Below, piece after piece: positions 4,454 through 64,000 of a stretch of DNA of 64,000 nucleotides. The stretch's first letter is position 1. Each line of letters opens with the position of its first letter. The notes under the pieces were generated by a model. That model saw only the letters and a list, made by a program, of their open reading frames with translations, searched no databases and was not told the DNA's origin. The DNA comes from Alphaproteobacteria bacterium (lineage in GTDB: Bacteria; Pseudomonadota; Alphaproteobacteria; Ferrovibrionales; Ferrovibrionaceae), in contig JAFKFH010000023.1 in assembly GCA_017307375.1 (NCBI GenBank), positions 62,001 to 126,000 of the forward strand, given 5' to 3'. A program made the position numbers and the translations under genes.

Positions 4454-4504
4454 CGTTCCCGCGCAATGTAGCCTCGATATCGGCGACGAGCGCAGGAGCA
4501 GGCC

Positions 4505-4984: not shown

Positions 4985-4998
4985 ACGCGCCTCCGCTT

Positions 4999-5048: not shown

Positions 5049-5061
5049 CTACCCTCAAATT

Positions 5062-5080: not shown

Positions 5081-5117
5081 CATAAGGTCCTCGAACAGTT
5101 TCCGAAGGACCCGTGCC

Positions 5118-5624: not shown

Positions 5625-5634
5625 ACCCGGGCGG

Positions 5635-6906: not shown

Positions 6907-6936
6907 CTTAAACCAAAGTCTAATGATGTGAAGGGC

Positions 6937-8714: not shown

Positions 8715-8715
8715 C

Positions 8716-9897: not shown

Positions 9898-9916
9898 GGC
9901 GTTTCCCCCGTTATTG

Positions 9917-47804: not shown

Positions 47805-48953
47805 TCAGCGCACGGGCCAGGCCCAGCGTGCGTCGCCCGCTTGGTCGACGCGGGTCTCGCCGAAATCTTTCTCCAGGCGGAATGTCGCCACGGTTTCGTC
47901 CTGCCGCAGCGTCTCGACGAGCGGATGGCTGTGGGAGACAACGACGATCTGGCACTGGCCCGCCGCCTTGATCAGCAGGCGGGCCAGGGGTTCGAGCAAC
48001 TGCGGATGCAGGCTCGCCTCGGGCTCGTTCAGCACCATGATCTCGGGCGGGCGCGGCGACATCAGGGCGGCGATCAGCAACAGGTAGCGCAAGGTACCGT
48101 CGGACAGCTCGGCGGCTGCCATCGGCCGCAGCAGGCCGGTCTGGCGCATGCCCAGACCGGCATGATCGCCGCCACCGATCTCGAGCGTCGCGCCGGGAAA
48201 GGCGTCGTCGATCGCCTCGGCCAGGCCGTGGGCATCGCCGATCGCGCGGATCGTCGTCAACGCCGCGGCAAGATCGCCGCCGTCGCTTGCCAGGACCGGC
48301 GTATAGGTGAGCACGTGGGGCCGCCGCGCCGGCGCTTCGCGGTCGGTACGCAGCGAATCGTAGAAGCGCCAATTGCGCATCCGGTCGCGCATGCGCAGCA
48401 GTTCCAGGCCATCCTCCGGGTCGGCACAATGGGTCACCATGCTGTCATAGGGGGCCAGCAGGGTCGCGAGACGCCGCCAGTTGCCGGTGGCATGGCGGCG
48501 CAGGCGGACTGTCGGCCCCCGGCGCTCGGCGAACATGTTGGCTGGACGCGCCGTCTGCCCGGCCCACATCGCCTCGACCTTGATCTCGGGATCGAGCGGG
48601 AACGGTCCCCCGACCGGCAGGCCGAGGTCGACTGCATAGCCGAAATCATCGGTGGTGAAGCCAAGCTTCAGGCTGATCACCGCGGCGCGCCTGGTCCCCT
48701 GAACCGGGTGCTCGCCGGCCCGCATCGACCGGCTGATCTGCTCGGGCCCGGCCCACAGCACCGAGGCGAGGCCGCCTTCTTGTGCCAGGGAGGCGACAAG
48801 CCGGCCCTGCGCCGTCTCCGACAGCAGCCGCAAGGCCCGATAGAGGCTCGACTTGCCGCTGCCATTGGCCCCGGTGATCACGTTGAGCGGGCGCAGGCCG
48901 AGGGTAAGGTCGCGAATGGATCGATAGCCGGCAATGGCAAGCTGGGTCAGCAT
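47805..48953 (-). CDS. AAA family ATPase, SMC/OLD-like
   Basis: The 382-residue protein has an ABC/SMC-like head: YRSIRDLTLGLRPLNVITGANGSGKSSL with Walker A at about 27-35, a LSDGTLRYLLLIAALM signature, Walker B IMVLNEPEASLHP and a switch VVVSHSHPLV. There is no TOPRIM or coiled-coil arm, and no nuclease partner next door. Such stand-alone RecF-like ATPases are widespread and mostly of unknown function; some are defence ATPases, but no defence partner is visible here. It is followed on the same strand by the chemoreceptor 240 bases away. Confidence 0.85.
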   Translation of the reverse strand: MLTQLAIAGYRSIRDLTLGLRPLNVITGANGSGKSSLYRALRLLSETAQGRLVASLAQEGGLASVLWAGPEQISRSMRAGEHPVQGTRRAAVISLKLGFTTDDFGYAVDLGLPVGGPFPLDPEIKVEAMWAGQTARPANMFAERRGPTVRLRRHATGNWRRLATLLAPYDSMVTHCADPEDGLELLRMRDRMRNWRFYDSLRTDREAPARRPHVLTYTPVLASDGGDLAAALTTIRAIGDAHGLAEAIDDAFPGATLEIGGGDHAGLGMRQTGLLRPMAAAELSDGTLRYLLLIAALMSPRPPEIMVLNEPEASLHPQLLEPLARLLIKAAGQCQIVVVSHSHPLVETLRQDETVATFRLEKDFGETRVDQAGDARWAWPVR

Positions 48954-49014: not shown

Positions 49015-50067
49015 TCAGTCCTTCTTCAGGTCGCCCCAGGTCGGGGGCCGCTTGGCCGCGCCCCCGGCCGTGGCCGTCAGGGCACTGCCCGGCGGGTTGA
49101 ACAACTGGCATTTCGGCAGGGTCTTGTAGTCCAGGTTCCAGACCTGGTCCCAGGTCTCGGCCCGGTTCGGCTTGCGCATCGCGAAATCGGTATAGTTCTG
49201 GCTGACGATCGGCGCGAAATACTGCTGCGGCTGCGCGCCGGAGCCCGGCGGAAAACCCGGGAAACTGGAGAAGTAGAACGAATGCGGGTGTCGATAGGGC
49301 TTGGCGTTCCTGTCGACCGCGTCGGGGGTGGCCTGGGCGTAGAAGCCATAGCCGAACATGATGTAGCCATCGACCGTACGGTCCGGGCTGACGCCGGTCT
49401 GCATGATCTTGCCCGTCGGCTTGGAGGCCGGATCCATCCAGAACGAATAGCCCTGCAGCCTGGGCTTGCCCTTGCCGTCCGGATTGGTGCGCATGCTGTC
49501 GGCCAGGCTGTAGGGCAGATGCTTGATGAAGTCGCGGGCCGGCGGATGGTTCAGCGGCGAGAACAGGCAGACCTTGGGCATGTCCTTCGGGCGGTCGTCA
49601 TAGGTCACGAAGAAGGCGATCGGACCGAGCGAGATGAACGAACAGCTGTAGTTGTTCTCCATCGGGAAGATCGGCAGGCATTTCTTCTCGTAATGCTCCT
49701 CCATCGCGCCGCGGCCATGTGGTGTCCTGATGGTCGAATCGTAATAGGTCGTGCCGCGGGATTCCTCGTAGGTGGTGCCGGCCGGCGGCTTACCGTCATA
49801 GGGTGGCGGGTGTTGCTGGAAGCCCTCATAGACGCGGTACATGTTCCAGCTCGACGTCCAGTACGCCGGCCAGCGCGGGTTGCTCGGCTCGCCCTTGCTG
49901 CGCCTGTAGACGCAGGTCTTGGGGTTCTGGCAATTGGACTTGTCCGGCGGGTTGTGGGCGCCATAGGTCGAGTAGATGTCGCCGTCGTCGGCGCGCGCCG
50001 CGGGCGCGGCGAGGCCGAACCCCGCGGCGATGATGGCCATTGCGGCCAGGAACCGTGTGCCACGCAT
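49015..50067 (-). CDS. Secreted protein of unknown function in the VioB-like operon
   Basis: The 350-residue protein has a clear signal peptide (about residues 1-26, cleavage after AARA) and no membrane segment. The mature part is rich in aromatic residues, Pro and Gly, with Cys scattered as NCQNPKTC, KKCLPIF, YSCSF, KVCLF and PKCQL, suggesting disulfides, and no recognisable catalytic motif. I do not recognise the family. It begins 29 bases after the ferritin-like gene on the same strand, so it is probably the third gene of the VioB-like operon and acts outside the cytoplasm. Confidence 0.8.
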   Translation of the reverse strand: MRGTRFLAAMAIIAAGFGLAAPAARADDGDIYSTYGAHNPPDKSNCQNPKTCVYRRSKGEPSNPRWPAYWTSSWNMYRVYEGFQQHPPPYDGKPPAGTTYEESRGTTYYDSTIRTPHGRGAMEEHYEKKCLPIFPMENNYSCSFISLGPIAFFVTYDDRPKDMPKVCLFSPLNHPPARDFIKHLPYSLADSMRTNPDGKGKPRLQGYSFWMDPASKPTGKIMQTGVSPDRTVDGYIMFGYGFYAQATPDAVDRNAKPYRHPHSFYFSSFPGFPPGSGAQPQQYFAPIVSQNYTDFAMRKPNRAETWDQVWNLDYKTLPKCQLFNPPGSALTATAGGAAKRPPTWGDLKKD

Positions 50068-50096
50068 GGGATGACGTCTCCTCCGGTCGCTCGATG

Positions 50097-51140
50097 TCAG
50101 GAAGCGTAGGGCTGGTAGCGGAAGGCCAGGCCGGTCTGCAGCGCCGCGTCGCCCGGCAGCGGTATCGACAGCACTTCCTGCGCCTGCAGCCGCAGGTCGT
50201 ACATCAGGCCCATCACCCGATCGAAGGCGCGGGGATCGCCGTTGAACGTGTCATGCAGCGCCCCGAGGAGCTGGGTGTAGGTGTAGGCGAACAGGATCGA
50301 GACATGGCGCGCCCGGCTGCCGGCCGGCAGCCTGTCGGGGTCGGGATTGGGCTGCATGTTCCAGACCGCCCGGTCGTCGAGCGCCACGACCGCGCCGCGG
50401 AAGGCAAAGCCGGTGGGCTCGGTACGATCCTGCACCAGGAGGCGCCCCTTCACGATCTGCTCGAAGCGATAGTAGTGCGCGACCTCGCCCTGGGCATCGA
50501 GCGGCGAGGTCGGCGTCCCCTCGCCCTGGCGGACGATCACCTGGATGGCGTCCGAGGCGCTGCGCGGGCTGGTGATCGGAAACAGCTGATCGGGCGGGAA
50601 CCAGCTGTTGTCGACGAATTCCTCGTCGAACCGGCCGATGAACGCCGACTGGCCCAGCTCGCGCAGCTTGGCGTCGATCGCGGCATAGAACTCGCCGATC
50701 GTTGCGTATTGCGCGGTGGCGTCGGCCTTGAGCAACGTCGGAAACTCGATCGGATGCTCAGGCTTCTCGATTTCCATGAACACGTTCTGGATCAGGTCGA
50801 GCGAGCATTTCTGCAGCGGCACCACGACATCGCCGATATTCATCGGCAGCGGCCCCGGATAGACCGGGACGAAGCCCGGCTTGTCGATCACCGGATGCCC
50901 CCCGATCGCGATCATCAGGTTGGAGGCGATGCACATATGCAGCATCTCCTCCATCACCACGCTGCGGATGATCGAGGCCACCTCCTGGTTGGTGCCGGTC
51001 TTCAGCGTGAAGTAGGCGCAGAGATAGGTCGGGATCGTCGAATGTTCGAGCTCGATCGCCTTCTGCACGGCGTCGTAGAGGTCGGCCGGGACCGCCGCCT
51101 GGCGGACCTGGTCGACATACTTGCGTTCGATCTTCAGCAT
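50097..51140 (-). CDS. Ferritin-like protein matching the C-terminal half of VioB
   Basis: The 347-residue protein belongs to the ferritin-like family that includes the C-terminal part of VioB, RebD and StaD. Helix motifs supply a full diiron-type ligand set: Glu32 (ELEHSTIPTY), Glu65-x2-His68 (EEMLHM), Glu150 (IGEFY) and Glu219-x2-His222 (GEVAHYYRF). VioB dimerises indole-3-pyruvate imine in violacein synthesis. Here the second domain is a separate gene 15 bases after the VioB N-terminal-like gene. No vioA, C, D or E homologue is nearby, so the product is not violacein. Substrate unknown. Confidence 0.83.
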   Translation of the reverse strand: MLKIERKYVDQVRQAAVPADLYDAVQKAIELEHSTIPTYLCAYFTLKTGTNQEVASIIRSVVMEEMLHMCIASNLMIAIGGHPVIDKPGFVPVYPGPLPMNIGDVVVPLQKCSLDLIQNVFMEIEKPEHPIEFPTLLKADATAQYATIGEFYAAIDAKLRELGQSAFIGRFDEEFVDNSWFPPDQLFPITSPRSASDAIQVIVRQGEGTPTSPLDAQGEVAHYYRFEQIVKGRLLVQDRTEPTGFAFRGAVVALDDRAVWNMQPNPDPDRLPAGSRARHVSILFAYTYTQLLGALHDTFNGDPRAFDRVMGLMYDLRLQAQEVLSIPLPGDAALQTGLAFRYQPYAS

Positions 51141-51155
51141 CGTCCGTCTCCCGCT

Positions 51156-53189
51156 TCAGCCCGCCGAACCGGCGATGTCTTCGAGGTAGTTGCGGATCGC
51201 CGCCGTCTTGCCCTCGTTGCCCGGCCCCAGCCGGTCGATGGCGGCCTTGGCGGTGGCCGGTCGGAGGCGCCGCGGATGAGCGGCCGGCGTGACCGGCGGC
51301 AGGGCCGGCGCCGTGAGCACGGCGCCCTCGGGCAGGACCGGCAGGCCGGCATCGACGGGAAGTCCGCCGGGCAGATAGCCGGCCAGCCATTCGACCAGCA
51401 TCCGCATCTTGCCGGCCGACATGTCGCGCGTCGCCGGCATGTAGTTGGCATCGTCGATCGAGCGGGTGAAGGCGAAGAACAGCAGGCGCGCGTTCGCCGT
51501 CACCGTCGCGTAGTCGGCGATGTCGAACAGCCCGCGGCTCATGATCGGATAGAGATTGCCGTATTGCGTCAGGATCGGCGCCACGTCGGTCGCCCAGCTC
51601 GGCGTCGCGGGCGGCACGAAGGCGTCGCGAATATGGAACCAGATGCCTTCGAAAATCGGCATCGGCGACTGGGAGGGCAGATCGAAGGAATAGCTGAACT
51701 GGTAGATCTGGCCGTCGATATAGCCGCGCGGATTTTCGGGGTTGCAGTATGAGACGGCCATCTCGGCGATACCGTCGGCGCCGGCTGTCATGGTTGGCTG
51801 CGGCATCGATATCTTGTCGGCCGGCACGTTGTTCGGCGGTATCGGCGCCTGCGGCGGATCGGCGGCATTGCCCCCGTCACCGCCATTGCCGGTGGAAACG
51901 GGATCGAGCGAGGCGGTGAGCGACGCCCCGGCATAGGGCTGGCCGTAGCGCATGGCATAGAGGCTGACCGACGCCGGCAGCCAGCCGGTCGGGGCCGCGT
52001 CGAGACGCTGGACAAAATTGTCGGCGCGCACGAACAGCCCGCCGATCGTCTCGCGGATCAGGACGACGTTGCCGTTCTTGAGGATCGCCAGCGGATGGTC
52101 GGCGATCAAGGCCTTCGCCGCCGCAGGGATCGCGAAATCGGCGATGCCGCCGGTTCGGCGCAGCCAGGCGACGTCATAGCCGGTCAACGTGCCGATTTCG
52201 ACGCACAGGTCGGCCGCGAGCGTGGCTCCGGAAGCCGCCAGCGGCGAGGCGGCGTCGGAAGAGCCGTCTTTGTCGGCATGCGTCAGCACGACGACGGTGA
52301 GCGGCCCAAGATCCTGCGGCACGATGATCTCGCCGTCCGGTCCAGGCGAGGGCAGCAGCCACATCGGCAGCGAGTTGCCGAAATCGAGGCTGAGCGTCGA
52401 CTGGTCGGCCGATACGGCCCCGTCCATCCAGTTGATTCCCCCGGGAAGCTGGCCCGTCGGGGCGAAGCGGCGCGACCGCGCGAACATCAGCGGGTCGCCG
52501 TTGAACCACGGACCGATCGAACCGATCACGGTGCCGAAGGTGAAACCCTCTGCCTGCGGTGTCTTGCTGTAGCCGTAGGTCAGCAGGCTGCAGCCGAGAC
52601 GGCCTTGATTTGCCTGCGCCTCGGCCTGCAAGGCCTGCAGGGCCGGATAGCGCGCGGACCCCGCCCCCCAGACGATCTGGTGCAGGGTGCCGGTGAACCG
52701 GGCCGACGCCCCCGGGCTCTGCGGCACCGGCTGGCCGGTCCCCTTGTCGATCACCCGGGCAAAGTAGATGTCGCGGAAGCAGGTCGGCATCAGCGTCGCC
52801 GCCATCAGGGTCTCGGCCCCGTCGGTCAATTCGATCCGCAGGCACCATAGCGCCGAGGCGAATTGGAACTGGGGATCGAGGTCGACGATCTTGGCGGCGG
52901 TTCGGCCGACCTGGGCATTGAGGCGCAGCGCCAGTTCCGGCGTGCTCGCCGTATCGCCCCCCGTCACCGCGCCGGTGACCACGCAGTTCAGCAGGCGGAA
53001 GGCATTCGACCCGTCGGGGTTCCACCAGCCATTGTACTGGGTCTTGCCATCGTCGGCCGGGCGCTGCGGGGTCTGGAAGCGCGGCTCGAAGGTCGGCACC
53101 GAGAAATTGCGGACATCGTTGTTGACCGTGTTGACGTCGGCCTCGAACAGGCCGGCAAACGTCAGGCGCGGCAGGTTCAGATAGCTCAT
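51156..53189 (-). CDS. Protein matching the N-terminal half of VioB
   Basis: The 677-residue protein resembles the N-terminal two-thirds of VioB, from its opening (MSYLNLPRLTFAGLFEADVN) to a C-terminal region (YPIMSRGLFDIADYATV, then NYMPATRDMSAGKMRMLVEWL) that in VioB precedes the ferritin-like domain. A Pro/Gly/Asp-rich stretch around residues 425-460 looks like a flexible linker. With the following 347-residue gene, the pair totals 1024 residues, near the ~1000 of intact VioB. It is the first gene of the operon, divergent from eboD across an AT-rich gap. It has no signal peptide. Confidence 0.78.
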   Translation of the reverse strand: MSYLNLPRLTFAGLFEADVNTVNNDVRNFSVPTFEPRFQTPQRPADDGKTQYNGWWNPDGSNAFRLLNCVVTGAVTGGDTASTPELALRLNAQVGRTAAKIVDLDPQFQFASALWCLRIELTDGAETLMAATLMPTCFRDIYFARVIDKGTGQPVPQSPGASARFTGTLHQIVWGAGSARYPALQALQAEAQANQGRLGCSLLTYGYSKTPQAEGFTFGTVIGSIGPWFNGDPLMFARSRRFAPTGQLPGGINWMDGAVSADQSTLSLDFGNSLPMWLLPSPGPDGEIIVPQDLGPLTVVVLTHADKDGSSDAASPLAASGATLAADLCVEIGTLTGYDVAWLRRTGGIADFAIPAAAKALIADHPLAILKNGNVVLIRETIGGLFVRADNFVQRLDAAPTGWLPASVSLYAMRYGQPYAGASLTASLDPVSTGNGGDGGNAADPPQAPIPPNNVPADKISMPQPTMTAGADGIAEMAVSYCNPENPRGYIDGQIYQFSYSFDLPSQSPMPIFEGIWFHIRDAFVPPATPSWATDVAPILTQYGNLYPIMSRGLFDIADYATVTANARLLFFAFTRSIDDANYMPATRDMSAGKMRMLVEWLAGYLPGGLPVDAGLPVLPEGAVLTAPALPPVTPAAHPRRLRPATAKAAIDRLGPGNEGKTAAIRNYLEDIAGSAG

Positions 53190-53474
53190 GCCATCCCCCT
53201 TCGGGCGTGGATCCGGAAATTTGTCGCGAACGCGGACTCGACGCGGCGGATACAGCCTTTCGACACGTGAAAGCTGCTCTTATGTAATTTTAATGCCGGT
53301 GCGGTTGCGTTCAGGATGTGTATTTCTGGGCAAGTTGGCAACCCAAATTACTACCTATGAGATGTTATTTTCACGTAATGTCTCGTTAACGCATTGCAGA
53401 GCGTGGCGTCGTTGGCGATATTGACGATTATCTGACGTGCTGATGCAGCAACGATGCAACCAGGGGATCGTGTC
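53190..53474. promoter_or_regulatory. AT-rich divergent promoter region between VioB-like operon and ebo cluster
   Basis: This 285-base gap separates divergent starts at 53189 and 53475. By my count bases 53281-53400 hold 49 G+C of 120 (about 41%), far below the surrounding two-thirds. It contains the palindrome CGTTAACG and no gene. The composition suggests a regulated bidirectional promoter, possibly a target for a silencing or nucleoid protein; no specific operator could be assigned. Confidence 0.65.
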
Positions 53475-54650
53475 ATGCAGCAGGCCGCGGCCATCGTTCG
53501 CCAGCGCTTCGCGGTGACCTACGACTATGCGGTGGCTTTCACCCGCGGCTGCTTCGACCCGGGAAACGGCACGCTGGCGACGGTGATGGACTGTGCGGCC
53601 ACGCTTCCCCGGCCACGTTGTGTCGTCTTCGTCGATCTCGGTGTCGCCAGTTCCCGCCCCGACCTCGCCGCCGCGATCACGGCCCATTTCGGCACGCGCA
53701 GCGACCTGCCCGCCCTGGTACTGCCGCCGCGGATGATGCCGGGCGGGGAGACGATCAAGAACGAGGCGCATCTGATCGGGGAGATGCACGACATCATTCT
53801 CGACCACGGTATAGACAGACATTCCTATGTCGTGGCGGTGGGTGGCGGCGCCTTCCTCGATGCCGTGGGCCTCGCAGCCTCGACCGCGCATCGCGGCGTC
53901 CGCCTGATCCGCGTGCCGACCACGGTGCTGGCGCAGAACGACGGCGGGGTCGGGGTCAAGACCGCGATCAACCGCCGCGGCGCGAAGAACCAGATCGGCA
54001 CCTTCGCCCCGCCATGGGCCGTGGTCAACGACGCCGATTTCCTGGACATGCTGCCGGCGCGCGAGCGCATCGCCGGCATGGCCGAGGCGGTCAAGGTCGC
54101 CCTGATCCGCGATGCTGCCTTCTTCGACTGGCTGGAGACGTCGGCCCACAGGCTTGCCGCCCTGGCGCCGGAGGCGCTGGCCTGGCTGGTCCGCCGCTGC
54201 GCCGAACTGCATATGCGGCAGATCGCACAAGGCGGCGATCCGTTCGAGCAGGGCTCGGCCCGGCCGCTCGACTTCGGCCACTGGGCCGCGCACAAGCTGG
54301 AGAGCCTCAGCCGCCATCACCTGCGGCACGGCGAGGCGGTCGCGATCGGCGTGGCGCTCGATACCCGCTACTCGGTGCTGGCCGGCATGGCGCCGGCGGG
54401 CATCGAGGAGCGCGTCGCCACCCTGCTGGAACGGCTGGGCTTTCGCCTCTGGCATCCGCTGCTGGCCGAGCGCGACGCGAGCGGCCAGCCGGTCGTGCTC
54501 GCCGGGCTGGAAGAATTCCGCGAGCATCTCGGCGGGCGGCTGACCGTGACGCTGCTGGAAGCCGTCGGCATCGGGGTCGAGGTCAACGCGATGGACGATG
54601 TCCTGGTCGGTCGCGCGATCGACTGGCTGGCGGCGCGCGAGGCTGCGTGA
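53475..54650 (+). CDS. eboD: EboD: 3-dehydroquinate synthase-family sugar phosphate cyclase
   Basis: The 391-residue protein is a sugar phosphate cyclase: VVAVGGGAFLDAVG and PTTVLAQNDGGVGVKTAIN (NAD/substrate), and zinc ligands Glu in AEAVKVALI, His in FGHWAAHKLE and His in HGEAVAIGVALD. It resembles dehydroquinate synthase but belongs to the Ebo subgroup; it likely cyclises an unidentified sugar phosphate. I prefer ATG 53475 because CAGGGGAT precedes it; ATG 53454 would add seven residues. It opens the ebo cluster; its TGA shares one base with the eboE start. Confidence 0.9.
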   Translation: MQQAAAIVRQRFAVTYDYAVAFTRGCFDPGNGTLATVMDCAATLPRPRCVVFVDLGVASSRPDLAAAITAHFGTRSDLPALVLPPRMMPGGETIKNEAHLIGEMHDIILDHGIDRHSYVVAVGGGAFLDAVGLAASTAHRGVRLIRVPTTVLAQNDGGVGVKTAINRRGAKNQIGTFAPPWAVVNDADFLDMLPARERIAGMAEAVKVALIRDAAFFDWLETSAHRLAALAPEALAWLVRRCAELHMRQIAQGGDPFEQGSARPLDFGHWAAHKLESLSRHHLRHGEAVAIGVALDTRYSVLAGMAPAGIEERVATLLERLGFRLWHPLLAERDASGQPVVLAGLEEFREHLGGRLTVTLLEAVGIGVEVNAMDDVLVGRAIDWLAAREAA

Positions 54651-55807
54651 TGCTCGGCTATTGCCTCAACGTGCATCCGACCCAGACGCTCGCCGAAGTC
54701 GCGGCCGCGCTGCGCGGACCGGTGCGGGTGGTCAAGTCGCGGGTCTCGCCCGATGCGCCGCTCCCCGTCGGGTTGCGCCTGTCGGCCGAGGCCGCGGCCG
54801 ATCCCGTGGCGGCCGCAGCCCTGCTCGGCCGGATCTTCGCCGAGGAGGGCTATCTCGCCTACACGATGAACGGCTTTCCCTATGGCCCGTTCCACGGCAC
54901 GCCGGTCAAGGAAGCGGTCTACGAACCTGACTGGACGACGCCGGAACGCCGCCGCTACACCGCCGATCTCGCCGCCGTCATGGCCGCGCTGGTGCCGGAG
55001 GGCGAGATCGCGACGATCAGCACCGTGCCCGGCGGTTTCGCCCCGAAGGCGCAGGGCCGGGCCGCCGAGATCGCCGACGGACTCCTGCACATGGTCGCCG
55101 ATCTCGTGGCGCTGGAGCGGGCGACCGGCCGCACCGTCGCGCTGGCGCTGGAGCCCGAGCCCTGGTGCCTGCTGGATACCACGGCGGACGCCATCGCCTT
55201 CTTCCGCGACCATCTGTTCACCGACGCCGCGGCCGCACGCCTCGCCGCCAGCGCGGACCTGTCCGTCGCCGCCGCGCGCGATGCCCTGCCCCGTCACCTC
55301 GGCCTCTGCCTCGATGTCTGCCACATGGCCGTCGCCTACGAGGCGCCGGGACCGACCTTGCGGGCATTGGCCGGGGCGGGCGTGCCGATCCATAAGCTGC
55401 AGCTCAGCGCCGCGCTACGCGTCGAGCGGCTGGACGATGCGGCGCGCACCCGGCTTGCCGCCTTCCGGGACGCGATCTACCTGCATCAGGTCGTCGTCCG
55501 GGCGGCCGATGGCACGATGCGCCGCTTTCTCGACCTGCCCGAGGCGCTGGCGGCGCGCGATCTCGACCCGGCCGGCGAATGGCGGGTGCATTTCCACCTG
55601 CCCGTCTTCGCCGCGCCGATACCGCCCCTCGGTTCGACCCGGGACGTGCTGGAACGGGTGCTCGCCCTACACCGCGATCGGCCGATCGCCCGGCATCTCG
55701 AGGTCGAGACCTATACCTGGGACGTGCTGCCCGCCGAATTCCGCCAGCACGACGTGGCCGACGGCATCGCCAAGGAGATCGCATGGGTGTCGCAGGAACT
55801 TTGCTGA
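54650..55807 (+). CDS. eboE: EboE: TIM-barrel metabolite traffic protein
   Basis: The 385-residue protein is a xylose isomerase/AP endonuclease 2-like TIM barrel of the EboE family: YCLNVHPTQTLAEV opening, YTMNGFPYGPFHG, LALEPEPWCLLDT and GLCLDVCHMAVAYE metal-site strands, and VETYTWDVLP near the end. EboE is required, with other Ebo proteins, for scytonemin precursor export in cyanobacteria, but its chemistry is unproven. The start ATG overlaps the eboD stop by one base; eboC starts 25 bases before its stop. Confidence 0.9.
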   Translation: MLGYCLNVHPTQTLAEVAAALRGPVRVVKSRVSPDAPLPVGLRLSAEAAADPVAAAALLGRIFAEEGYLAYTMNGFPYGPFHGTPVKEAVYEPDWTTPERRRYTADLAAVMAALVPEGEIATISTVPGGFAPKAQGRAAEIADGLLHMVADLVALERATGRTVALALEPEPWCLLDTTADAIAFFRDHLFTDAAAARLAASADLSVAAARDALPRHLGLCLDVCHMAVAYEAPGPTLRALAGAGVPIHKLQLSAALRVERLDDAARTRLAAFRDAIYLHQVVVRAADGTMRRFLDLPEALAARDLDPAGEWRVHFHLPVFAAPIPPLGSTRDVLERVLALHRDRPIARHLEVETYTWDVLPAEFRQHDVADGIAKEIAWVSQELC

Positions 55808-56646
55808 TCCGGCCGCGGGCCGCGCTGGTCCTGGGTCGCGTTTCCAACCTGCCGACGGTGGTCAGCAACGCTCTGGCCGGGTTGATCCTGGCGGGGGCGC
55901 CCGCCGAAGGCCTGCCGCTGGTGCTAGCGGCGCTGGTGCCGTTCTATCTCGGCGGCATGTACCTCAACGATGCCTTCGATGCCGAGGTCGACGCCCGCGA
56001 ACGGCCCGGCCGTCCAATCCCGAGCGGCACCGCCACGCGGCAGGCGGTCTTCGCGGCCGGCTTCGTGCTGATGGGGCTGGGTCTTGCCGTGACCGTCGGC
56101 GCCGGGGCCGAGCCGGCGGGACTGGCCCTGTTCGCGGCGATCCTGGTCTACGATGCCGTCCACAAGCACACGGTGCTCGCCCCGGTGATCATGGGGGTGT
56201 GCCGGCTGCTCTGCTATGTCAGCGCGGCGGTGATGCTGTCCGGTCAGCTCGACCGTCCGGCCCTGATCGTCGGTGCGGCAGGATTGTTTGCCCATGTCGT
56301 CGGGCTGACCTACGCGGCGCGGCAGGAAGCCTACGACCGGCTGGAGGCCGCCTGGCCGCTGGCGGTACTGGCGGTGCCGCTGGCCTGGGCCCTGTGGTCG
56401 GCGCAGGACAGCCTGCTTGCCCTGGCGCTGTGTGCCGCCCTGGCCGGGGCGACCGGCTACGGCCTGCGGCTGCTGTTCCGCCGCGCCCCCGGCGACGTGC
56501 CGCGCGCCGTCGGCCTGCTGATCGCCGCCATCCCGCTCTACGATGCGGTACTGATCGCGGCCGCGGGGTCTGCGGCGATGGCGATCGTCGCAGCCCTGTG
56601 CTTTCCCGCCACCCTGGCGCTGCACCGGGTGGTGCCGGGAACCTGA
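55783..56646 (+). CDS. eboC: EboC: UbiA-family prenyltransferase-like membrane protein
   Basis: The 287-residue protein has eight to nine hydrophobic helices and UbiA motifs: NDAFDAEVDARERPGRPIPSG (Asp-rich prenyl-diphosphate site) and YDAVHKHTVLAPVIMGVCR (second motif). UbiA proteins transfer prenyl groups to aromatic or sugar-like acceptors in the membrane; in the ebo system the acceptor is unknown. ATG 55783 follows AAGGAGATCGC and overlaps eboE by 25 bases. It ends nine bases before the convergent eboF gene. Confidence 0.9.
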   Translation: MGVAGTLLIRPRAALVLGRVSNLPTVVSNALAGLILAGAPAEGLPLVLAALVPFYLGGMYLNDAFDAEVDARERPGRPIPSGTATRQAVFAAGFVLMGLGLAVTVGAGAEPAGLALFAAILVYDAVHKHTVLAPVIMGVCRLLCYVSAAVMLSGQLDRPALIVGAAGLFAHVVGLTYAARQEAYDRLEAAWPLAVLAVPLAWALWSAQDSLLALALCAALAGATGYGLRLLFRRAPGDVPRAVGLLIAAIPLYDAVLIAAAGSAAMAIVAALCFPATLALHRVVPGT

Positions 56647-56655
56647 ACCATGGGC

Positions 56656-58038
56656 TCAGCCGAAGACATGGGCCAATGCCAGATCCTTGAACGCGGTCGC
56701 CGCCACCGGCCCGTCGGGCAGCAGATGCGGCGCCGACGAGATCACCAGCGGTCCGGCCGCCGGGTCGCCACCGATACGGCCGTGCGAGCCACGTACGAGG
56801 TGGGTATCGCCGGCGGATATGACATCGAGCAGCCGGCGCTGGCCCAGCGCCCGCACCCCCAGCCGCCACGCCGCGGCGAGCTTGGGCCAGCGCAGCGCCG
56901 GATCGAAGAACAGTTCGACCGGGTCGTAGCCGGGCTTGCGGTGGATTTCGACGGTGCGGGCGAAATCGGGGGCGCAGGCGTCGTCGAGCCAGTAGTGATA
57001 GGCAAACCAGCTGTCCGCGGCGGCCAGGGCGACCAGTTCGCCGCTGCGCGGATGATCGAGGCCGTGGGCGGCCTTCTCGGCCTCGCCCCACACCGCCTCG
57101 ACGCCGTCGAGCTGCCCGAGCAGTGTGCGCGCCGGCGGGACATCGGCGGGGTCGCGGACATAGACATGGGCGACTTGGTGATCGGCCAGGGCGAAGGCGC
57201 GGCTGGCTCCGGGATCGAGCATGTCGCGGCCGAGTTCCCGCCTGACCGCGATCAGCCCGGCGGCGCGCAGCGCCCGGTTGATGAAGACCGCACGGCTGAC
57301 CGGCGTGATGCCGTATTCGGAAACCACGATCACGCGGGCGCCGCGCTGTTCCGCGGCAGCGATCAGGCGGCCGGCCAGCGCATCGACGTCGCGCAGGGAC
57401 GATCGCACGGCCCGATGGCCCTTGTCGGGGCCGAAGCGCTGCAGGTCGTAGTCGAGATGCGGCAGGTAGGTCAGCGTGAGGGTCGGGCCGCGGGTCGCCA
57501 TCACGTGCAGCGTGGCGTCGGTGATCCAGCGGCTGGAGGTGATGTCGGTCATCGGCCCCCAGAACTTGAACAGCGGGAACTGGCCCAGCCGGTCCGTCAG
57601 CTCGTCGCGCAGTTCCATCGGGTGGCTGTAGCAGTCGGGGATCTTGCGGCCGTCGGCCGGATACATCGGCCGCGGCGTCACGCTCCAATCCACCGACGCG
57701 TACATGTTGTACCACCAGAACAGCTTGGCGCAGGTGAAGCCGGGATCACGCCGGCGGCCGGCCTCCCACAGTTTCTCGCCGCCGACCAGATGGTTCGACT
57801 GGCGCCACAGCCAGATCTCGGCCTGGTCGCGGAAGTACCAGCCGTTGGCGACCGCGCCGTGCCCCGATGGCGGCAGGCCGGTGACCAGGGTGGACTGCAC
57901 CGTGCAGGTGACTGCCGGGACGACGGTGGCAAGCGGACGCAAGCCGCCACGACCGGCCAGCGCGGCCAGATGCGGCGTGTCCGGCCCGATCAGATCCGGG
58001 GTCAGCCCGACGACGAGGATGATCAAGGTTGGCTGCAT
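56656..58038 (-). CDS. eboF: EboF: alkaline phosphatase/nucleotide pyrophosphatase-fold protein, inverted
   Basis: The 460-residue protein has the phosphodiesterase/alkaline-phosphatase fold and the EboF sequence pattern: VVGLTPDLIG at the N-terminus, VPAVTCTVQSTLVTG with a possible Thr nucleophile, NGWYFRDQAEIW, FWWYNMY, HLDYDLQRFGPD, VVSEYGITPVS and RGSHGRIGGD. Compared with catalytic nucleotide pyrophosphatases, the first metal Asp (here VVG), the His of the Asp-His pair (LQRFG) and the second Asp-His (SEYG instead of SDHG) are replaced, so ordinary two-zinc catalysis looks unlikely. It is on the opposite strand to the other ebo genes. Confidence 0.88.
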   Translation of the reverse strand: MQPTLIILVVGLTPDLIGPDTPHLAALAGRGGLRPLATVVPAVTCTVQSTLVTGLPPSGHGAVANGWYFRDQAEIWLWRQSNHLVGGEKLWEAGRRRDPGFTCAKLFWWYNMYASVDWSVTPRPMYPADGRKIPDCYSHPMELRDELTDRLGQFPLFKFWGPMTDITSSRWITDATLHVMATRGPTLTLTYLPHLDYDLQRFGPDKGHRAVRSSLRDVDALAGRLIAAAEQRGARVIVVSEYGITPVSRAVFINRALRAAGLIAVRRELGRDMLDPGASRAFALADHQVAHVYVRDPADVPPARTLLGQLDGVEAVWGEAEKAAHGLDHPRSGELVALAAADSWFAYHYWLDDACAPDFARTVEIHRKPGYDPVELFFDPALRWPKLAAAWRLGVRALGQRRLLDVISAGDTHLVRGSHGRIGGDPAAGPLVISSAPHLLPDGPVAATAFKDLALAHVFG

Positions 58039-58082
58039 GCCGCGATTGTCGGTCAGCCGAAAACATCTTACAACTGTCTATT

Positions 58083-58805
58083 ATGAATAATAATCAATCT
58101 ATAGGGGATCTTCTCTACCGATGGATCGACCGGCAGGCCACGGTCGACGGATTGTCCGTCATGCTCGGCGAGATGGCGGCGGGGCCGGACGACGCCCGGC
58201 TCGACCTTGCCTTCGCCCGGTTGCCGCGCCTGGTCGGTCGTGCGCCGCTGACGCTTGCGCCGGCGGACGAGGCCGCCGCCGAAGCGGCAAGGCCGGGCTG
58301 GCGGCCGGCCGGATGGCCGGTCGACGCGGCCGCCCGCATCCTGCTGTTGCTGCATCTGCCGCGGGCGGGCTTCGCCGACCGGTTCCGGCGGCTGCGCCGG
58401 GTGGCGGATACCGCCGAACTGGTCGCCCTGTTTCGCGGCCTGCCGCTCTATCCCGATCCGGAGCGGCTGGAGGACGAGGCCGGCGAAGGCCTGCGCAGCA
58501 ACATGCGACCGGTATTCGAGGCGGTCGCCCATCACAGCCCCTACCCGCGCGAAGTCTTCGGCGAGCACCGCTGGAACCACATGGTGCTCAAGGCCCTGTT
58601 CGTCGACAGCCCGCTCGCTCCGATCCAGGGGCTGGACGAACGGGCGAACCCCGAACTGGCCATGATGCTGCGCGACTACGCCCGCGAGCGCCGCGCCGCG
58701 GGCCGACCGATCTCGCCGGAACTGTGGCGCTGTCTCATTCCCTTCGCGCAGGCGGTCGGCGCGGAAGCGGACGTTGCCCTGGCCGATCTGGAGCGCATCC
58801 CATGA
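58083..58805 (+). CDS. eboA: EboA domain protein
   Basis: The 240-residue protein matches EboA, an all-helical family defined by these clusters: NMRPVFEAVAHHSPYPREVF, RWNHMVLKALFVDSPLAPIQGLD, and ANPELAMMLRDYARERRAAGRPI followed by LWRCLIPF. Its biochemical role is unknown. ATG 58083 lies in an AT-rich segment with no evident ribosome site; ATG 58161 would drop 26 residues. It is divergent from eboF (45 bases between starts), and its TGA overlaps the eboB start. Confidence 0.87.
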   Translation: MNNNQSIGDLLYRWIDRQATVDGLSVMLGEMAAGPDDARLDLAFARLPRLVGRAPLTLAPADEAAAEAARPGWRPAGWPVDAAARILLLLHLPRAGFADRFRRLRRVADTAELVALFRGLPLYPDPERLEDEAGEGLRSNMRPVFEAVAHHSPYPREVFGEHRWNHMVLKALFVDSPLAPIQGLDERANPELAMMLRDYARERRAAGRPISPELWRCLIPFAQAVGAEADVALADLERIP

Positions 58806-59695
58806 TGTTCATCGACCCGCATGCCCACATGATCTCGCGGACGACCGACGACTACGAGGCGATGGCGGCGGCCGGCATCGTCGCGGTGATCGAGCCGGCC
58901 TTCTGGGTCGGCCAGCCGCGCACGCATGTCGCAAGCTATGCCGACTATCTCTCCGCCATTCTCGGTTTCGAGCGCTTTCGCGCCGGGCAGTTCGGGCTGC
59001 GCCACTACTGCACGATCGGGCTCAACTCCAAGGAAGCCAACGACGAGGCGCTGGCCGAGGCGGTGATGGAGATCCTGCCGCGCTTCGCCATCAAGGAAGG
59101 GGTCGTGGCGATCGGCGAGATCGGCTACGACGAGCAGACCGCGCTGGAGGACCGCTATTTCCGCCGCCAGCTGGAACTGGCCCGCGAACTCGACCTGCCC
59201 GTGATGATCCACACGCCGCATCGCGACAAGAAGCGAGGCACCACGCGCTCGATGGATGTATGCGAGGAACATGGCCTCGATCCGTCGCGCGTCGTGGTCG
59301 ATCACAACAACGAGGAGACGGTGGCCGAGGTGCTGCAGCGCGGCTACTGGGCCGCCTTCTCGATCTATCCGTCGACCAAGATGGGCGATGCCAGGATGGT
59401 CGAGATCCTGAAGCGGTACGGCGCCGAGCGCGTCATCGTCAACTCGGCCTGCGACTGGGGAATCTCCGACCCGCTGTCGGTGCCGAAGACAGCCAAGCTG
59501 GCCCTGGCCCAGGGCGTGGCCGCCGAGGACGTGCGCCGGGCCTGCTACGCCAATGCGCTGGCGGCCTTTGCTCCGTCGGGCCAGATCGCCGAGAGCGACT
59601 GGCTGAGCGGCCCGGCGATCGACCAGCGCACGCTGTACGAGGGGAACTCGATCCTGCGCGGCGGCCGCGATGCCCGGGTGACGGCGGCCGAATAG
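58802..59695 (+). CDS. eboB: EboB: TatD-family metal-dependent hydrolase
   Basis: The 297-residue protein is a TatD-like amidohydrolase-fold protein with its metal ligands present: DPHAHM (His7, His9), GEIGYDEQT (Glu), MIHTPHRDK (His), VVDHNNEETV (His) and NSACDWG (Asp). TatD enzymes are phosphodiesterases or exonucleases, but the Ebo branch probably acts on the cluster's small molecule. ATG 58802 overlaps the eboA stop as ATGA. It ends four bases from the convergent epimerase-type gene. Confidence 0.9.
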   Translation: MMFIDPHAHMISRTTDDYEAMAAAGIVAVIEPAFWVGQPRTHVASYADYLSAILGFERFRAGQFGLRHYCTIGLNSKEANDEALAEAVMEILPRFAIKEGVVAIGEIGYDEQTALEDRYFRRQLELARELDLPVMIHTPHRDKKRGTTRSMDVCEEHGLDPSRVVVDHNNEETVAEVLQRGYWAAFSIYPSTKMGDARMVEILKRYGAERVIVNSACDWGISDPLSVPKTAKLALAQGVAAEDVRRACYANALAAFAPSGQIAESDWLSGPAIDQRTLYEGNSILRGGRDARVTAAE

Positions 59696-59699
59696 CGTC

Positions 59700-60722
59700 T
59701 CAGGCCTGCGAACCCCAGCTGTCCGACAGGGCAAAGCCGTCCGGGAACGGATCGCGGTCGTCCAGACGCAGTTGCTCGCGTCCGTAGATCCAGGCCTGAC
59801 CGGTGATCCGCGGCAGGATGGCCGGACGGTCGCCGACGGTGGTCTCGCCGACCACTTCGGCGAGGAATTCCCCGCCGATGATCGAGCGCGAGCGCCGCCC
59901 CTCGCCTGCCCTGATCCGGCCGCGGGCGTGCAGGGTGGCGAGATTGGCCGAACTGCCGGTGCCGCAGGGCGAGCGGTCGACGCGGCCGGGCCTGAGCGTC
60001 GTGCAGGTTCGCACGGCACCGTCGGGTTCCCGGCCGCGGAACATCACATAGGCGATCTCGTCGAGGCCGGGCAATGTCGGATGGCTGACGCGGACCTGCC
60101 GGGCCAGCAGGGCCTTCAACGCGATGCCCGCCTCGGCCAGGTCGCGGGCCTGCGGCGGCGCGATGGCGAGCCCGACCTGCTCGACATCGATGATCGCGTA
60201 GTAGACGCCGCCGAAGGCGATATCCGCCGTGATGCGGCCCCAGCGCGGGGTTTCTACGGCCATATCCAGCGTCTCCACGAAGCAGTCGACATTGTCCAGG
60301 CTGACCGACAGGCAGCGGCCGTCGACGCAGCGGGCGCGGGCCACGATCAGCCCGGCCGGCGTGTCGATGCGGACCGTGGTTTCCGGCTCGACCATCGGCA
60401 CCCGGCCGGTTTCGAGCAGGGCGGTCACGACGCAGATGCAGTTCGACCCCGACATCGGGTGGGCGCGGTCGGCCTGCAGTACGATGAAGCCCGCATCGGC
60501 CTCGGGCCGGCAGGGCGGGACCAGCAGGTTGACCGACATCGCCACATGGGCGCGCGGCTCGGAAGTGACGAAACGGCGCAGGCGGTCGTCGCCGGCATTG
60601 ATTCGATTCATCTTGTCCAGCAGCGTGGCCCCGGGGATCTCGGGCGCACCACCGACGATGACCTTGCCGATTTCGCCCTGGCAATGGACCTGCAGCAGGT
60701 CGAGCGAATGTTCCCAGTTCAT
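59700..60722 (-). CDS. Proline racemase-superfamily protein (4-hydroxyproline epimerase type, Ser/Cys pair)
   Basis: The 340-residue protein is a proline racemase-fold enzyme. Proline racemase and 4-hydroxyproline epimerase use two Cys; here the first site reads MSGSN (Ser91 instead of Cys), and the second is SPCGTG (Cys253). I recall Ser/Cys members assigned as hydroxyproline epimerases and/or 3-hydroxyproline dehydratases. ATG 60722 fits the family N-terminus; the frame runs on upstream. It overlaps the aldehyde dehydrogenase stop (ATGA). Given its neighbours, it most likely converts trans-4-hydroxy-L-proline to cis-4-hydroxy-D-proline. Confidence 0.87.
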   Translation of the reverse strand: MNWEHSLDLLQVHCQGEIGKVIVGGAPEIPGATLLDKMNRINAGDDRLRRFVTSEPRAHVAMSVNLLVPPCRPEADAGFIVLQADRAHPMSGSNCICVVTALLETGRVPMVEPETTVRIDTPAGLIVARARCVDGRCLSVSLDNVDCFVETLDMAVETPRWGRITADIAFGGVYYAIIDVEQVGLAIAPPQARDLAEAGIALKALLARQVRVSHPTLPGLDEIAYVMFRGREPDGAVRTCTTLRPGRVDRSPCGTGSSANLATLHARGRIRAGEGRRSRSIIGGEFLAEVVGETTVGDRPAILPRITGQAWIYGREQLRLDDRDPFPDGFALSDSWGSQA

Positions 60723-62194
60723 TTGATGTACCAGCCCCAGGGATCGTCGCTGACGTAGCGTGTGATCTGCTTGGTTTCCAGATAGTTGTCGAGGCCCCAG
60801 CGTCCGAGTTCGCGGCCGATGCCGGATTGCTTGTAGCCGCCCCAGGGCGCCTCGGTGAAGGTCGGCTGCGAACAGTTGATCCAGACGATGCCGGCGCGAA
60901 GCGCCGCCGCTACCCGCTCGGCCCGGTCGAGGTCGGCCGACATGACCGCGGCCGCGAGGCCGTAGCACGACGCATTGGCAAGGCGCACGCCTTCGGCCTC
61001 GTCGGCGAATCGCCGCAGGCAGACGACGGGGCCGAAGATTTCCTCGCGCCAGGCCGCGCTGTCCAGCGGCACGTCGGTCAGCACCGTCGGCTCGACGAAG
61101 TAGCCGCGCGGGAGGCCGGCGGGCACACCGCCACCGGTCGCGACGGTTGCCCCGTCGGCGCGGGCGCGGGCAACCGCCGCCAGCACCTTGGTCCGCTGGG
61201 CATCGGAAACCAGGGGGCCGAGCAGTACGCCGGCATCGAGCCCGTTGCCGATCCGGATCCGGCGCGCCTCGGCCACCAGCCTTTCCACCAGGCGGTCATG
61301 GATCGCCCCATGCACCAGCACCCGCGACGTGGCCGAGCAGACCTGGCCCTGGTTCCAGAAGATGCCGAACATGATCCATTCGACAGCCTTCTCGATATCG
61401 GCATCGTCGAACACCAGGAATGGCGACTTGCCGCCGAGTTCGAGGCTGATCTTCTTGATGTCGCGCGCGGCGGCTGCCATCACCTTGGCACCGGTCGGCA
61501 CCGAGCCGGTGAAGGCGAGCTTGTCGACGGCCGGGTGATCGCAGAGCGGCTGGCCGGCGTCGGTGCCGGTGCCGGTGACGATGTTCAGCACCCCGGCCGG
61601 CAGCCCCGCCGCCTCGGCGATCACGCCGAGTTCCAGCGCGGTCAGCGGCGTCAGCTCGGACGGCTTGAGGATCATGGTGCAGCCGGCTGCCAGCGCGGGG
61701 GCGACTTTCCAGGCCGCCATCAGCAGCGGGTAGTTCCAGGGAATCACGGCACCGGCGACGCCAAGCGGTTCGCGTACCGCCCGGGCAACGAAACGCGGAT
61801 CGGGCAGCGCGATCTGCTCGGGGCCAGCCCCATCCATCGCCTCGGCGAGGCCCGCGTAGAACTCGAAGCAGCCGGCAGCATCGCCCACGTCCCATTCCGC
61901 CTCCGGCAGCGGCTTGCCATTGTCGAGAACTTCGAGACGGGCAAGCTCGACCAGACGGGCGCGGATACCGGCGGCGATCGCCCGCAGGGCCTGGCCACGC
62001 TCGGCGCCGCCGGCGCGCCGCCAGGGACCATCGTCGAAGGCGCGGCGGGCGGCCGCCACCGCCGCATCGATGTCTTCCGCCGTGCCGGCCGGCGCCTGGT
62101 GAATGACCGCCTCGGTCGCCGGGTCGATCACCGCAAGGCTGCCGCCGCGCTTCGGCGCGACCCAGCGGCCGTCGATGAAAAGCCTGTCGCGCAT
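60719..62194 (-). CDS. Aldehyde dehydrogenase, probably 2-oxoglutarate semialdehyde dehydrogenase
   Basis: The 491-residue protein has the full NAD(P)-aldehyde dehydrogenase set: VIPWNYPLLMAAWKVAPALAAG, FTGSVPTGAKVMAA, catalytic Glu in LELGGKSP, catalytic Cys in NQGQVCSATSRVLV and EEIFGPVVCL. In the hydroxyproline pathway the last step oxidises 2-oxoglutarate semialdehyde (2,5-dioxopentanoate) to 2-oxoglutarate; the neighbouring epimerase, oxidase and DapA-type genes make this the likely role. It lies 10 bases after the flavoprotein gene and overlaps the epimerase-type gene. Confidence 0.92.
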   Translation of the reverse strand: MRDRLFIDGRWVAPKRGGSLAVIDPATEAVIHQAPAGTAEDIDAAVAAARRAFDDGPWRRAGGAERGQALRAIAAGIRARLVELARLEVLDNGKPLPEAEWDVGDAAGCFEFYAGLAEAMDGAGPEQIALPDPRFVARAVREPLGVAGAVIPWNYPLLMAAWKVAPALAAGCTMILKPSELTPLTALELGVIAEAAGLPAGVLNIVTGTGTDAGQPLCDHPAVDKLAFTGSVPTGAKVMAAAARDIKKISLELGGKSPFLVFDDADIEKAVEWIMFGIFWNQGQVCSATSRVLVHGAIHDRLVERLVAEARRIRIGNGLDAGVLLGPLVSDAQRTKVLAAVARARADGATVATGGGVPAGLPRGYFVEPTVLTDVPLDSAAWREEIFGPVVCLRRFADEAEGVRLANASCYGLAAAVMSADLDRAERVAAALRAGIVWINCSQPTFTEAPWGGYKQSGIGRELGRWGLDNYLETKQITRYVSDDPWGWYIK

Positions 62195-62204
62195 GGCGCC
62201 CTCC

Positions 62205-63437
62205 TCAGAAGCGGTCGATGCGATAGGGTGTCATGTCGAGCGGCGGGGCCACACCGGTGACGAGATCGCCGATCAGCCGCGCCGTGGTCGCGGCCTGGGT
62301 GAGGCCGAGATGGCCGTGCCCGGTGGCGTAATAGACGCCGCGCGTCGTCGTCGACGGGCCGATGATCGGCACGGTATCGGGCAGGGCCGGCCGGTGCCCC
62401 ATCCATTCCGACGTGTCGCGCGCCTGCAGCCCCGGCAGCGCGACGCGGGCGCGGTCGACCAGCGCCCGGGCGCGGCGGTAGTCCGGCGGGGCGTCGAGGC
62501 CCGCCATCTCGACGGTGCCGCCGACGCGGATGCCACCGGCGGTCGGCGTGACCATGAAGGCGCGGGCCGGCCAGATCAGCGAATGCCGCAGGGCGATGCC
62601 CGGTGCCATGATCTGGGTGTGGTAGCCCCGCTCGGTCTCCAGCGGGATCGGCTCGCCCAGCATGCGGGCCAGCGCCCCGGTATGGGCGCCGCCGCACAGG
62701 ATCGCCGCGGTCGCCCCGATCTGCCGGCCATCGGCCAGGCGCAGCGCCGTCAGCCCGTCGTCGCGGTCGAATCCGACGACATCGCCGGTCGCAAACCTGC
62801 CGCCCATGGCTTCGAAACGCTCGACCAGCGCCACCACCAGCCGATGGGGGTCGCGCACCGACCGGTTCCGGGGGAACAGCACCGCGCGCCGGATGCCGGC
62901 CGAGATCTCCGGTTCCAGCGCCCGCAGCCGATCGGGTCCCAGCACCTCGTGCGGCAGGGCGAAACGTTCGAGCAGCGCAAGATGATCGCGATCGGCTGTG
63001 AACTCCCGGTCGTCGGCATAGAGGCTCAGGCACCCTTCGGCCGACAGCATGTCGCCCAGCCCTGCCGCGTCGAGCAGCGGCAGCAGATCGTCATAGACCC
63101 GGCCGCAGAGCGCGGCGCCGGCCGCTTCCAGGGCGCGTACCCGTGCCGGCGTCCCGGCCATCAGGAAACGGAGGAACCAGGGCATCGCCTCGAGCAGGTA
63201 ACCCGGCCGCACCCGTACCGGGCCCTCGGGATCGAACAGCCAGCCAGGAATCCGTGCCCAGATGCCCGGCCGCGACGACGGCAGGAATTCGGTGACCGCG
63301 ATGCTGGCCATGTTGCCGTAGGAAGCGCCGCGGCCAGGCGCGCCCCGGTCGATCAGCAGGACGTCGCGGCCGCGGCGCCGCAGCTCGAAGGCGATCGCCG
63401 CCCCGATGATGCCGGCGCCGACGACCGCGACGGTCAT
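62205..63437 (-). CDS. FAD-dependent D-amino acid oxidoreductase, probably D-hydroxyproline oxidase
   Basis: The 410-residue protein has a DadA-like glycine/D-amino acid oxidase fold: FAD motif VGAGIIGAAIAFELRRRG at the start, ASYGNMASI, and ATGHGHLGLTQA near the C-terminus. In hydroxyproline catabolism this class oxidises cis-4-hydroxy-D-proline to 1-pyrroline-4-hydroxy-2-carboxylate. The frame is open upstream to 63986, but ATG 63437 overlaps the preceding stop as ATGA and starts the Rossmann strand. Confidence 0.9.
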   Translation of the reverse strand: MTVAVVGAGIIGAAIAFELRRRGRDVLLIDRGAPGRGASYGNMASIAVTEFLPSSRPGIWARIPGWLFDPEGPVRVRPGYLLEAMPWFLRFLMAGTPARVRALEAAGAALCGRVYDDLLPLLDAAGLGDMLSAEGCLSLYADDREFTADRDHLALLERFALPHEVLGPDRLRALEPEISAGIRRAVLFPRNRSVRDPHRLVVALVERFEAMGGRFATGDVVGFDRDDGLTALRLADGRQIGATAAILCGGAHTGALARMLGEPIPLETERGYHTQIMAPGIALRHSLIWPARAFMVTPTAGGIRVGGTVEMAGLDAPPDYRRARALVDRARVALPGLQARDTSEWMGHRPALPDTVPIIGPSTTTRGVYYATGHGHLGLTQAATTARLIGDLVTGVAPPLDMTPYRIDRF

Positions 63438-64000
63438 GCCTGTGCCGCGGCGAAGACCGCCGAGAACGCGGTCTTCTCTTCCGCCGACAGCGGCATCAGC
63501 GGCCGCCGCGTTTCGCCGACGGCAAGGCCCGCGAGTTCGCAGCCATATTTGACCTTCTGCACGAACTTGCCCGATTCCAGATCGGTCATCGCCGGATAGA
63601 TCCGGCGCATCAGCGCCTGCGCCGCCGCCAGATCGCCGGACACGAACGCCTCGTAGAACTTGACCGCGGGCGCCGCAAAGCAGTTTGCCGGGCCGCAGAT
63701 CCAGCTGGTCGCGCCCCACATGAAGAAGTCGAAGGCCTGATCGTCGCTGCCGCAGGAAAGCGCGAGCCGGCCGGCATAGCGGCGGTTGATCTCGAGGGCG
63801 CGCAGCAGGTTGCCGCTGCTTTCCTTGATCGCGATCACCCTGGGCTCGTCGGCCAGCGCGTCCATCACGTCGAAGCCGACCTCGACGCCGGCGCGCAGCG
63901 GAAAGTTGTAGAGCACGATGCGCACGTCGACGGCATCGAGCACGGCGCGATAATGGCCGAGCAGTTCCTGCTGCGTCGGCAGGCAATAGTATGGCGGCGG
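63434..64000 (-). CDS. DapA-family aldolase/deaminase, probably 1-pyrroline-4-hydroxy-2-carboxylate deaminase (N-terminus outside window)
   Basis: Only the C-terminal ~188 residues lie in the window; the frame is open at the last base. The fragment has the DHDPS fold: PPPYYCLP at the edge, VLYNFPLRAG (catalytic Tyr region), IAIKESSGNL (Schiff-base Lys), and GSDDQAFDFFMWGATSWICGPANCFAAP. In the hydroxyproline pathway a DapA-type enzyme deaminates 1-pyrroline-4-hydroxy-2-carboxylate to 2-oxoglutarate semialdehyde. It is the first visible gene of the minus-strand operon and overlaps the flavoprotein gene by ATGA. Confidence 0.88.
   Translation of the reverse strand, partial: PPPYYCLPTQQELLGHYRAVLDAVDVRIVLYNFPLRAGVEVGFDVMDALADEPRVIAIKESSGNLLRALEINRRYAGRLALSCGSDDQAFDFFMWGATSWICGPANCFAAPAVKFYEAFVSGDLAAAQALMRRIYPAMTDLESGKFVQKVKYGCELAGLAVGETRRPLMPLSAEEKTAFSAVFAAAQA

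Follow-up and report, generated by a model that had tools for sequence, protein, structure and literature searches.

In a 64,000-nucleotide stretch of alphaproteobacterial DNA (the window), three closely spaced genes on the minus strand are transcribed in the order NT, CT, and G3. NT (51156–53189) encodes a 677-residue homologue of the N-terminal half of VioB without a signal peptide, CT (50097–51140) a 347-residue ferritin-like homologue of the VioB C-terminal half, and G3 (49015–50067) a 350-residue exported protein of an undescribed family with a predicted VioE/LolA-type fold. The three open reading frames (ORFs) were found exactly where the first-pass annotation had placed them. The gaps between them are 15 and 29 bases, an operon-like spacing, and the CT and G3 starts are each preceded by a purine-rich stretch resembling a ribosome-binding site. 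Next to these genes, in divergent orientation and outside 49015–53189, lies a full ebo set (eboD, E, C, F, A, and B; 53454–59695), which the first pass did not mention; its six genes stand together beside the pair, as identified by Pfam, NCBIfam, and Ebo HMMs. The intergenic region between NT and eboD (53190–53453) is the probable location of the promoters, judging from gene orientation. Diverging from NT on the plus strand are genes for an EboD-like protein of the 3-dehydroquinate synthase family (53454–54650; NF004852, E = 5.6e-163, and the EboD HMM), the metabolite traffic protein EboE (54650–55807; NF035939, 412.6 bits versus a cut-off of 250), and an EboC-like UbiA-family membrane protein (55732–56646, start approximate; PF01040, E = 2.6e-15; NF035940, 96.6 bits, below the cut-off of 250). 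These are followed on the opposite strand by a gene for an EboF-like phosphodiesterase/nucleotide pyrophosphatase (56656–58038, minus; PF01663, E = 2.2e-64, and the EboF HMM), and then on the plus strand by genes for an EboA-like protein (58083–58805; EboA HMM, 118 bits; start inferred, internal ATG) and an EboB-like TatD-family hydrolase (58799–59695, start approximate; EboB HMM, 499 bits).

Just past G3, a minus-strand gene (47805–48953) encodes an ATPase of the AAA_21 type that matches the methylation-associated defence ATPase MAD3 below threshold (E = 3.3e-19, 69 versus 420 bits). On the far side of the ebo cluster, three minus-strand ORFs (59700–63986), which by sequence appearance are epimerase-like, aldehyde-dehydrogenase-like, and FAD amino-acid-dehydrogenase-like, resemble a hydroxyproline/amino-acid catabolic group.

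VioB, the iminophenyl-pyruvate dimer synthase, couples tryptophan-derived units on the way to the purple pigment violacein. Four true VioB proteins of 997–1005 residues, from Pseudoduganella, Massilia, and Chromobacterium genomes, served as hhalign references for profiles built from 92 NT and 88 CT homologues. NT aligns to VioB residues 1–581 (probability 99.2, E = 1.8e-19), from its first residues (MSxLxxPRxxFxG) up to the segment preceding the ferritin-like part, and CT aligns to residues 595–933 (probability 98.8, E = 8.6e-17), colinear with the NT match. This agrees with the first-pass reading of the two proteins as the N- and C-terminal halves of a VioB-type protein, and their combined length (677 + 347 = 1024 residues) is close to that of VioB, as had also been claimed. 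In NCBIfam, NT gives a weak match to the VioB model TIGR04492 (E = 1.7e-7, 29 bits versus a cut-off of 1250); as this falls below the equivalog cut-off, NT is related to VioB but not filed as VioB. Neither a Pfam family nor a match among PDB sequences was found for NT. The AF2 model of NT (pLDDT 87, pTM 0.87) is predicted to contain beta-rich domains with a helical segment at the C-terminus. Searched against PDB folds, the model returned Ig-like matches over residues 383–523 (Z ≤4.5) and long Foldseek matches of low TM score, so the fold search of this predicted structure is uninformative and gives no evidence for a new fold. The PDB holds no VioB structure, so the profile alignment stands in for the structural comparison with the VioB N-terminal region that the first pass had suggested; heme b has been reported for VioB, which was without a structure as of 2021 (PMC9705886).

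CT belongs to Pfam PF12902 (E = 3.7e-68). Six candidate metal ligands (E32, E65, H68, E125, E207, and H222) are invariant in 58/58 homologues and present in 4/4 true VioB proteins, so the full diiron-type ligand set that had been noted in CT is indeed kept. Since the family is ferritin-like, these residues probably form a diiron-type site. The ferritin-like PDB entry 3hl1 is related to CT in sequence (E = 9.9e-20) but has no NT partner in its entry. A plain ferritin reading was considered and rejected.

The division into two ORFs is unlike the single VioB polypeptide of about 1000 residues. A genome scan found 158 NT relatives in species genomes and returned 79 loci; together with loci from plasmids and sampled genomes, this gave 87 NT loci. 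By the terms of the first pass, its reading would have been refuted by homologous families in which the two genes never adjoin. Instead, the neighbourhood recurs in other genomes, with CT directly downstream of NT in 81 of the 87 loci and a G3 homologue, before or after the pair, in 29. The remaining six loci comprise two natural NT–CT fusions (L080, 892 residues, and L085, 936 residues; hosts Undibacterium and a Chloroflexi MAG), one locus with CT just upstream of NT and fused behind G3 (L034), two whose contigs end near NT (L020 and L084), and L063. The split family occurs in about nine phyla (Pseudomonadota, Bacteroidota, Cyanobacteriota, Myxococcota, Acidobacteriota, Actinomycetota, Planctomycetota, Chloroflexota as a fusion, and SAR324); no relatives were found in viral contigs. 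In the CT tree, true VioB forms a separate 100/100 branch and the CT of the window clusters with those of Caulobacteraceae and Acetobacteraceae MAGs. A recently broken VioB gene, carrying a frameshift or stop and having no separate meaning, would agree with VioB in length and order as the pair does. However, both ORFs have separate starts and ribosome-binding-like sites, the same arrangement is found across phyla, and true VioB is a distinct branch; we exclude this explanation as having practically no chance of being right. The split is thus an old and stable one. True VioB and the split pair occur side by side in several violacein-type genomes, which sets the pair apart as a system other than the violacein enzyme. 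Four loci (L046, L049, L050, and L059) contain two divergent NT–CT pairs in tandem, which suggests two substrates or a hetero-oligomer.

The third gene had been described as encoding an exported protein without a known family, and this description stands: G3 begins with a Sec-type signal sequence (MRGTRFLAAMAIIAAGFGLAAPAARA) and matches nothing in Pfam, NCBIfam, or the PDB sequences. Some G3 N-termini resemble lipoprotein signals, and the LolA family is absent among the Pfam matches of 14 G3 members. In the sampled genomes and plasmids, G3 turned up only alongside VioB-N-like genes. It occurs in exactly three of 398 sampled genomes, those with NT or a divergent NT2, and in four plasmid records, each with NT and CT. 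When the AF2 model (pLDDT 76) was compared with known structures, the first three ranks were taken by VioE entries (Z 10.7, 10.6, and 10.6; 155–162 aligned residues), followed by ependymin-related EPDR1 (Z 10.3) and LolA (Z 9.8), which count as ties by the rule of the tool, whereas Foldseek ranked LolA-superfamily entries first. Given these ties, the safe statement is that G3 has a predicted VioE/LolA-type fold. An hhalign comparison of G3 with VioE gave E = 0.15, below shuffled controls and thus no significant sequence similarity; the best short stretch shares its register with the structural alignment, but the overall match is non-significant. G3 has many invariant residues, including an NHPP..DFIKHLPY stretch. 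For VioE itself, the catalytic residues are quoted as Tyr17, Ser19, Phe50, Asn51, Glu66, and Arg172 (PMC10452622). G3 is like VioE in that its predicted fold matches VioE best (Z 10.6–10.7, tied with ependymin and LolA) and in the company of VioB-type genes, and differs in being exported, larger, and without sequence similarity. The genomic context suggests that G3 may be a VioE counterpart. The earlier statement that violacein genes are absent was too strong: no VioA, VioC, or VioD adjoins the pair, but the third protein has a predicted fold whose top match is VioE.

It is also quite possible, somewhat short of an even chance, that G3 is an ordinary LolA/LolB-type carrier of lipids or lipoproteins and no counterpart of VioE, as the tied LolA score (Z 9.8 against 10.7), the precedence of the LolA superfamily in Foldseek, and the lipoprotein-like N-termini would have it. 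A carrier of this kind does not readily explain why VioE entries occupy ranks 1–3, why G3 is confined to VioB-N-like loci, or why its invariant residues exceed those usual for a passive carrier. A natural G3–CT fusion with a signal peptide is encoded in a Symploca MAG (L034, 5546–7474), where an assembly artefact is possible; if real, it would place CT possibly outside the cytoplasm in that lineage.

A second VioB-N-like family, NT2, occurs without CT and adjoins X4. A CxxCH c-heme motif is invariant among the X4 proteins, several of which begin with a signal-like stretch. NT2 and X4 are found together in L112 (G310:C48:42000-61000; 2642–10691), L006 (2899–6344), and L022 (13234–16272), and X4 alone in L086 (11868–13838); X4 was not found in the genome of the window. 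In L112, from sampled genome G310, ebo, X4, NT2, G3, X4, and NT2 follow one another with no CT, so G3 and ebo accompany a VioB-N-like module even when a likely c-type heme protein replaces the ferritin-like half. Separately, a family of short membrane proteins recurs near the pair (L015, L032, L034, L037, L065, and L086); the member in L032, the sole one tested, has a VTT/DedA-type domain by Pfam, and an N-terminal segment resembling this protein is fused to EboD in L112 (15498–17399).

The link to ebo extends well beyond the window. At least two ebo genes lie within about 10 kb of NT in 25 of the 87 loci, and in 20 of the 54 with full flanks. Linkage of the NT–CT pair to ebo extends over at least three phyla. 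Whole ebo clusters lie downstream of the pair in Aureibacter and Mycetohabitans, and ebo genes adjoin it in Gloeothece, while the Azospirillum copies are without local ebo linkage. The order and orientation of the ebo genes vary between lineages, and the linkage label must have changed at least 13 times on the CT tree, with supported branches forcing at least nine of the changes. This points to a recurrent association and not to one inherited block, with linkage gained or lost repeatedly. Among genomes whose pair is locally unlinked, EboE is present in 18/24 (19/25 counting a linked Nitrospirillum), against 2/397 other genomes in a sample of 398 Pseudomonadota; the two groups are unmatched by phylum, which makes the size of this contrast approximate. 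The association is one-sided, as many ebo clusters occur without NT, e.g. on Streptomyces plasmids, and in sampled genome G333, which has NT, CT, and G3, no EboE match was found. The ebo genes are widespread though little understood; they act in the export of scytonemin intermediates to the periplasm (PMC6282210). In the published ebo accounts consulted, among them PMC6282210 and PMC5133447, no partner of ferritin-like or VioB type is named; compared with the known traffic cluster, the window has the same six genes and differs by the VioB-type partner beside them.

No VioA/RebO/StaO-type amino-acid oxidase lies next to the pair among the genes read at 43596–63986, as had been noted before, with the exception of an apparent D-amino-acid-dehydrogenase-like ORF (62205–63986, by sequence appearance). 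The genome of the window contains no LodA, and only generic amine-oxidase-family genes, located elsewhere than the window. A LodA/GoxA-type CTQ oxidase with a flavoprotein partner occurs near the pair in L008 (3498–6559), L034 (1963–4171), and L082 (14735–17998). In these three unrelated lineages, imine or H2O2 could come from the CTQ oxidases.

To our knowledge, every characterised protein of the NT-plus-CT type, i.e. VioB and the chromopyrrolic acid synthases RebD and StaD, couples imines; the sequence comparison here was made with VioB. Compared with VioB, both halves are homologous and colinear and share the six candidate metal ligands, but the window has two genes, on a separate deep branch, with no VioA, VioC, or VioD adjoining. 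We propose, at only slightly less than an even chance, that an aromatic product is made by a heteromeric oxidase of VioB type, that the Ebo proteins export it, and that G3, with its predicted VioE/LolA-type fold, binds or rearranges it. NT and CT would be two subunits of one heteromeric oxidative enzyme with the diiron-type site in CT. Their cytoplasmic substrate would be an activated aromatic precursor derived from an aromatic amino acid, in all likelihood an imine or keto acid of the aryl-pyruvate kind, with the substrate oxidase supplied from elsewhere in the genome. The product would be a coupled or oxidised intermediate, which the neighbouring Ebo proteins would pass through the inner membrane in the way proposed for scytonemin, and which G3 would take up, bind, or rearrange in the periplasm. 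The analysis shows the homology to both VioB halves, the conserved colinear pairing and ligand residues, the recurrent linkage and co-occurrence with ebo, and the confinement of G3 to VioB-N-like loci together with its predicted fold. We infer from these that NT and CT form one complex, which metal and perhaps heme it uses, what it acts on and by what coupling chemistry, that Ebo carries the product, and what G3 does. Several observations count against this mechanism. The signal-bearing G3–CT fusion in the cyanobacterial MAG does not fit a cytoplasmic CT, there is no adjacent amino-acid oxidase, G333 lacks an EboE match, many ebo clusters are without NT, and G3 lacks sequence similarity to VioE, its Z score being tied with those of ependymin and LolA.

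Two other readings of the pair need to be weighed against this one. Diiron sites support varied oxidations, and the pair could instead carry out a non-coupling oxidation, such as oxidatively cleaving or oxygenating an Ebo-made molecule that derives from tryptophan or a cyclitol, Ebo then being biosynthetic and not a transport system. We regard this as unlikely, partly because VioB, RebD, and StaD are all coupling enzymes. EboC and EboD are homologues of UbiA and dehydroquinate synthase, and a prenylated cyclitol was once proposed as the ebo product (PMC5133447), but deletion work in Nostoc favours a translocation role for ebo (PMC6282210). The products dependent on the EDB cluster include monomeric indole-3-aldehyde and indolyl-oxoacetamide (PMC9655573), support that would hold if EDB has VioB-like genes. 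It is more improbable still that NT, CT, and G3 provide ferritin- or catalase-like oxidant protection, by H2O2 removal or iron storage, and are tied to ebo through stress or pigment islands. CT is ferritin-like, catalase activity and heme b have been reported for VioB (PMC9705886), and three loci have H2O2-releasing LodA-family CTQ oxidases close to the pair. However, NT homology covers the whole VioB N-half, which a ferritin would not need, and G3 occurs only with VioB-N-like genes. The repeated linkage to a metabolite-export cluster also fits biosynthesis better than oxidant protection. Nothing observed favours the catalase-like alternative raised in the first pass over an oxidative enzyme, though nothing contradicts it either.

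Another system that speaks for the proposal is the EDB cluster of Pseudomonas fluorescens NZI7, known here from published descriptions. It includes all of ebo along with signal-peptide ORFs (PMC6282210), and according to a review it converts tryptophan to indole compounds that repel Caenorhabditis elegans (PMC9655573). A wider generalisation, which we put forward tentatively and think rather doubtful, is a widespread and hitherto undescribed class of ebo-linked biosynthetic systems. In these, an aromatic intermediate would be made in the cytoplasm by a heteromeric oxidase of VioB type, or else by a VioB-N-like protein and its c-type-heme partner; Ebo would export it, and an exported VioE-like enzyme would finish it in the periplasm, giving surface-associated compounds that may deter grazers. 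The openly accessible literature, of which coverage was incomplete, contained nothing relevant on VioB-like or split VioB proteins, and the NT–CT–G3–ebo system is provisionally taken as not previously described.

In summary, the neighbourhood points to an uncharacterised exported metabolite. For the cargo of ebo beyond scytonemin producers, the pair gives a concrete and testable hypothesis. The split, smaller VioB-type enzyme offers separable subunits for structural work, and the arrangement provides a handle for mining genomes from about nine phyla for a class of metabolites yet to be characterised.
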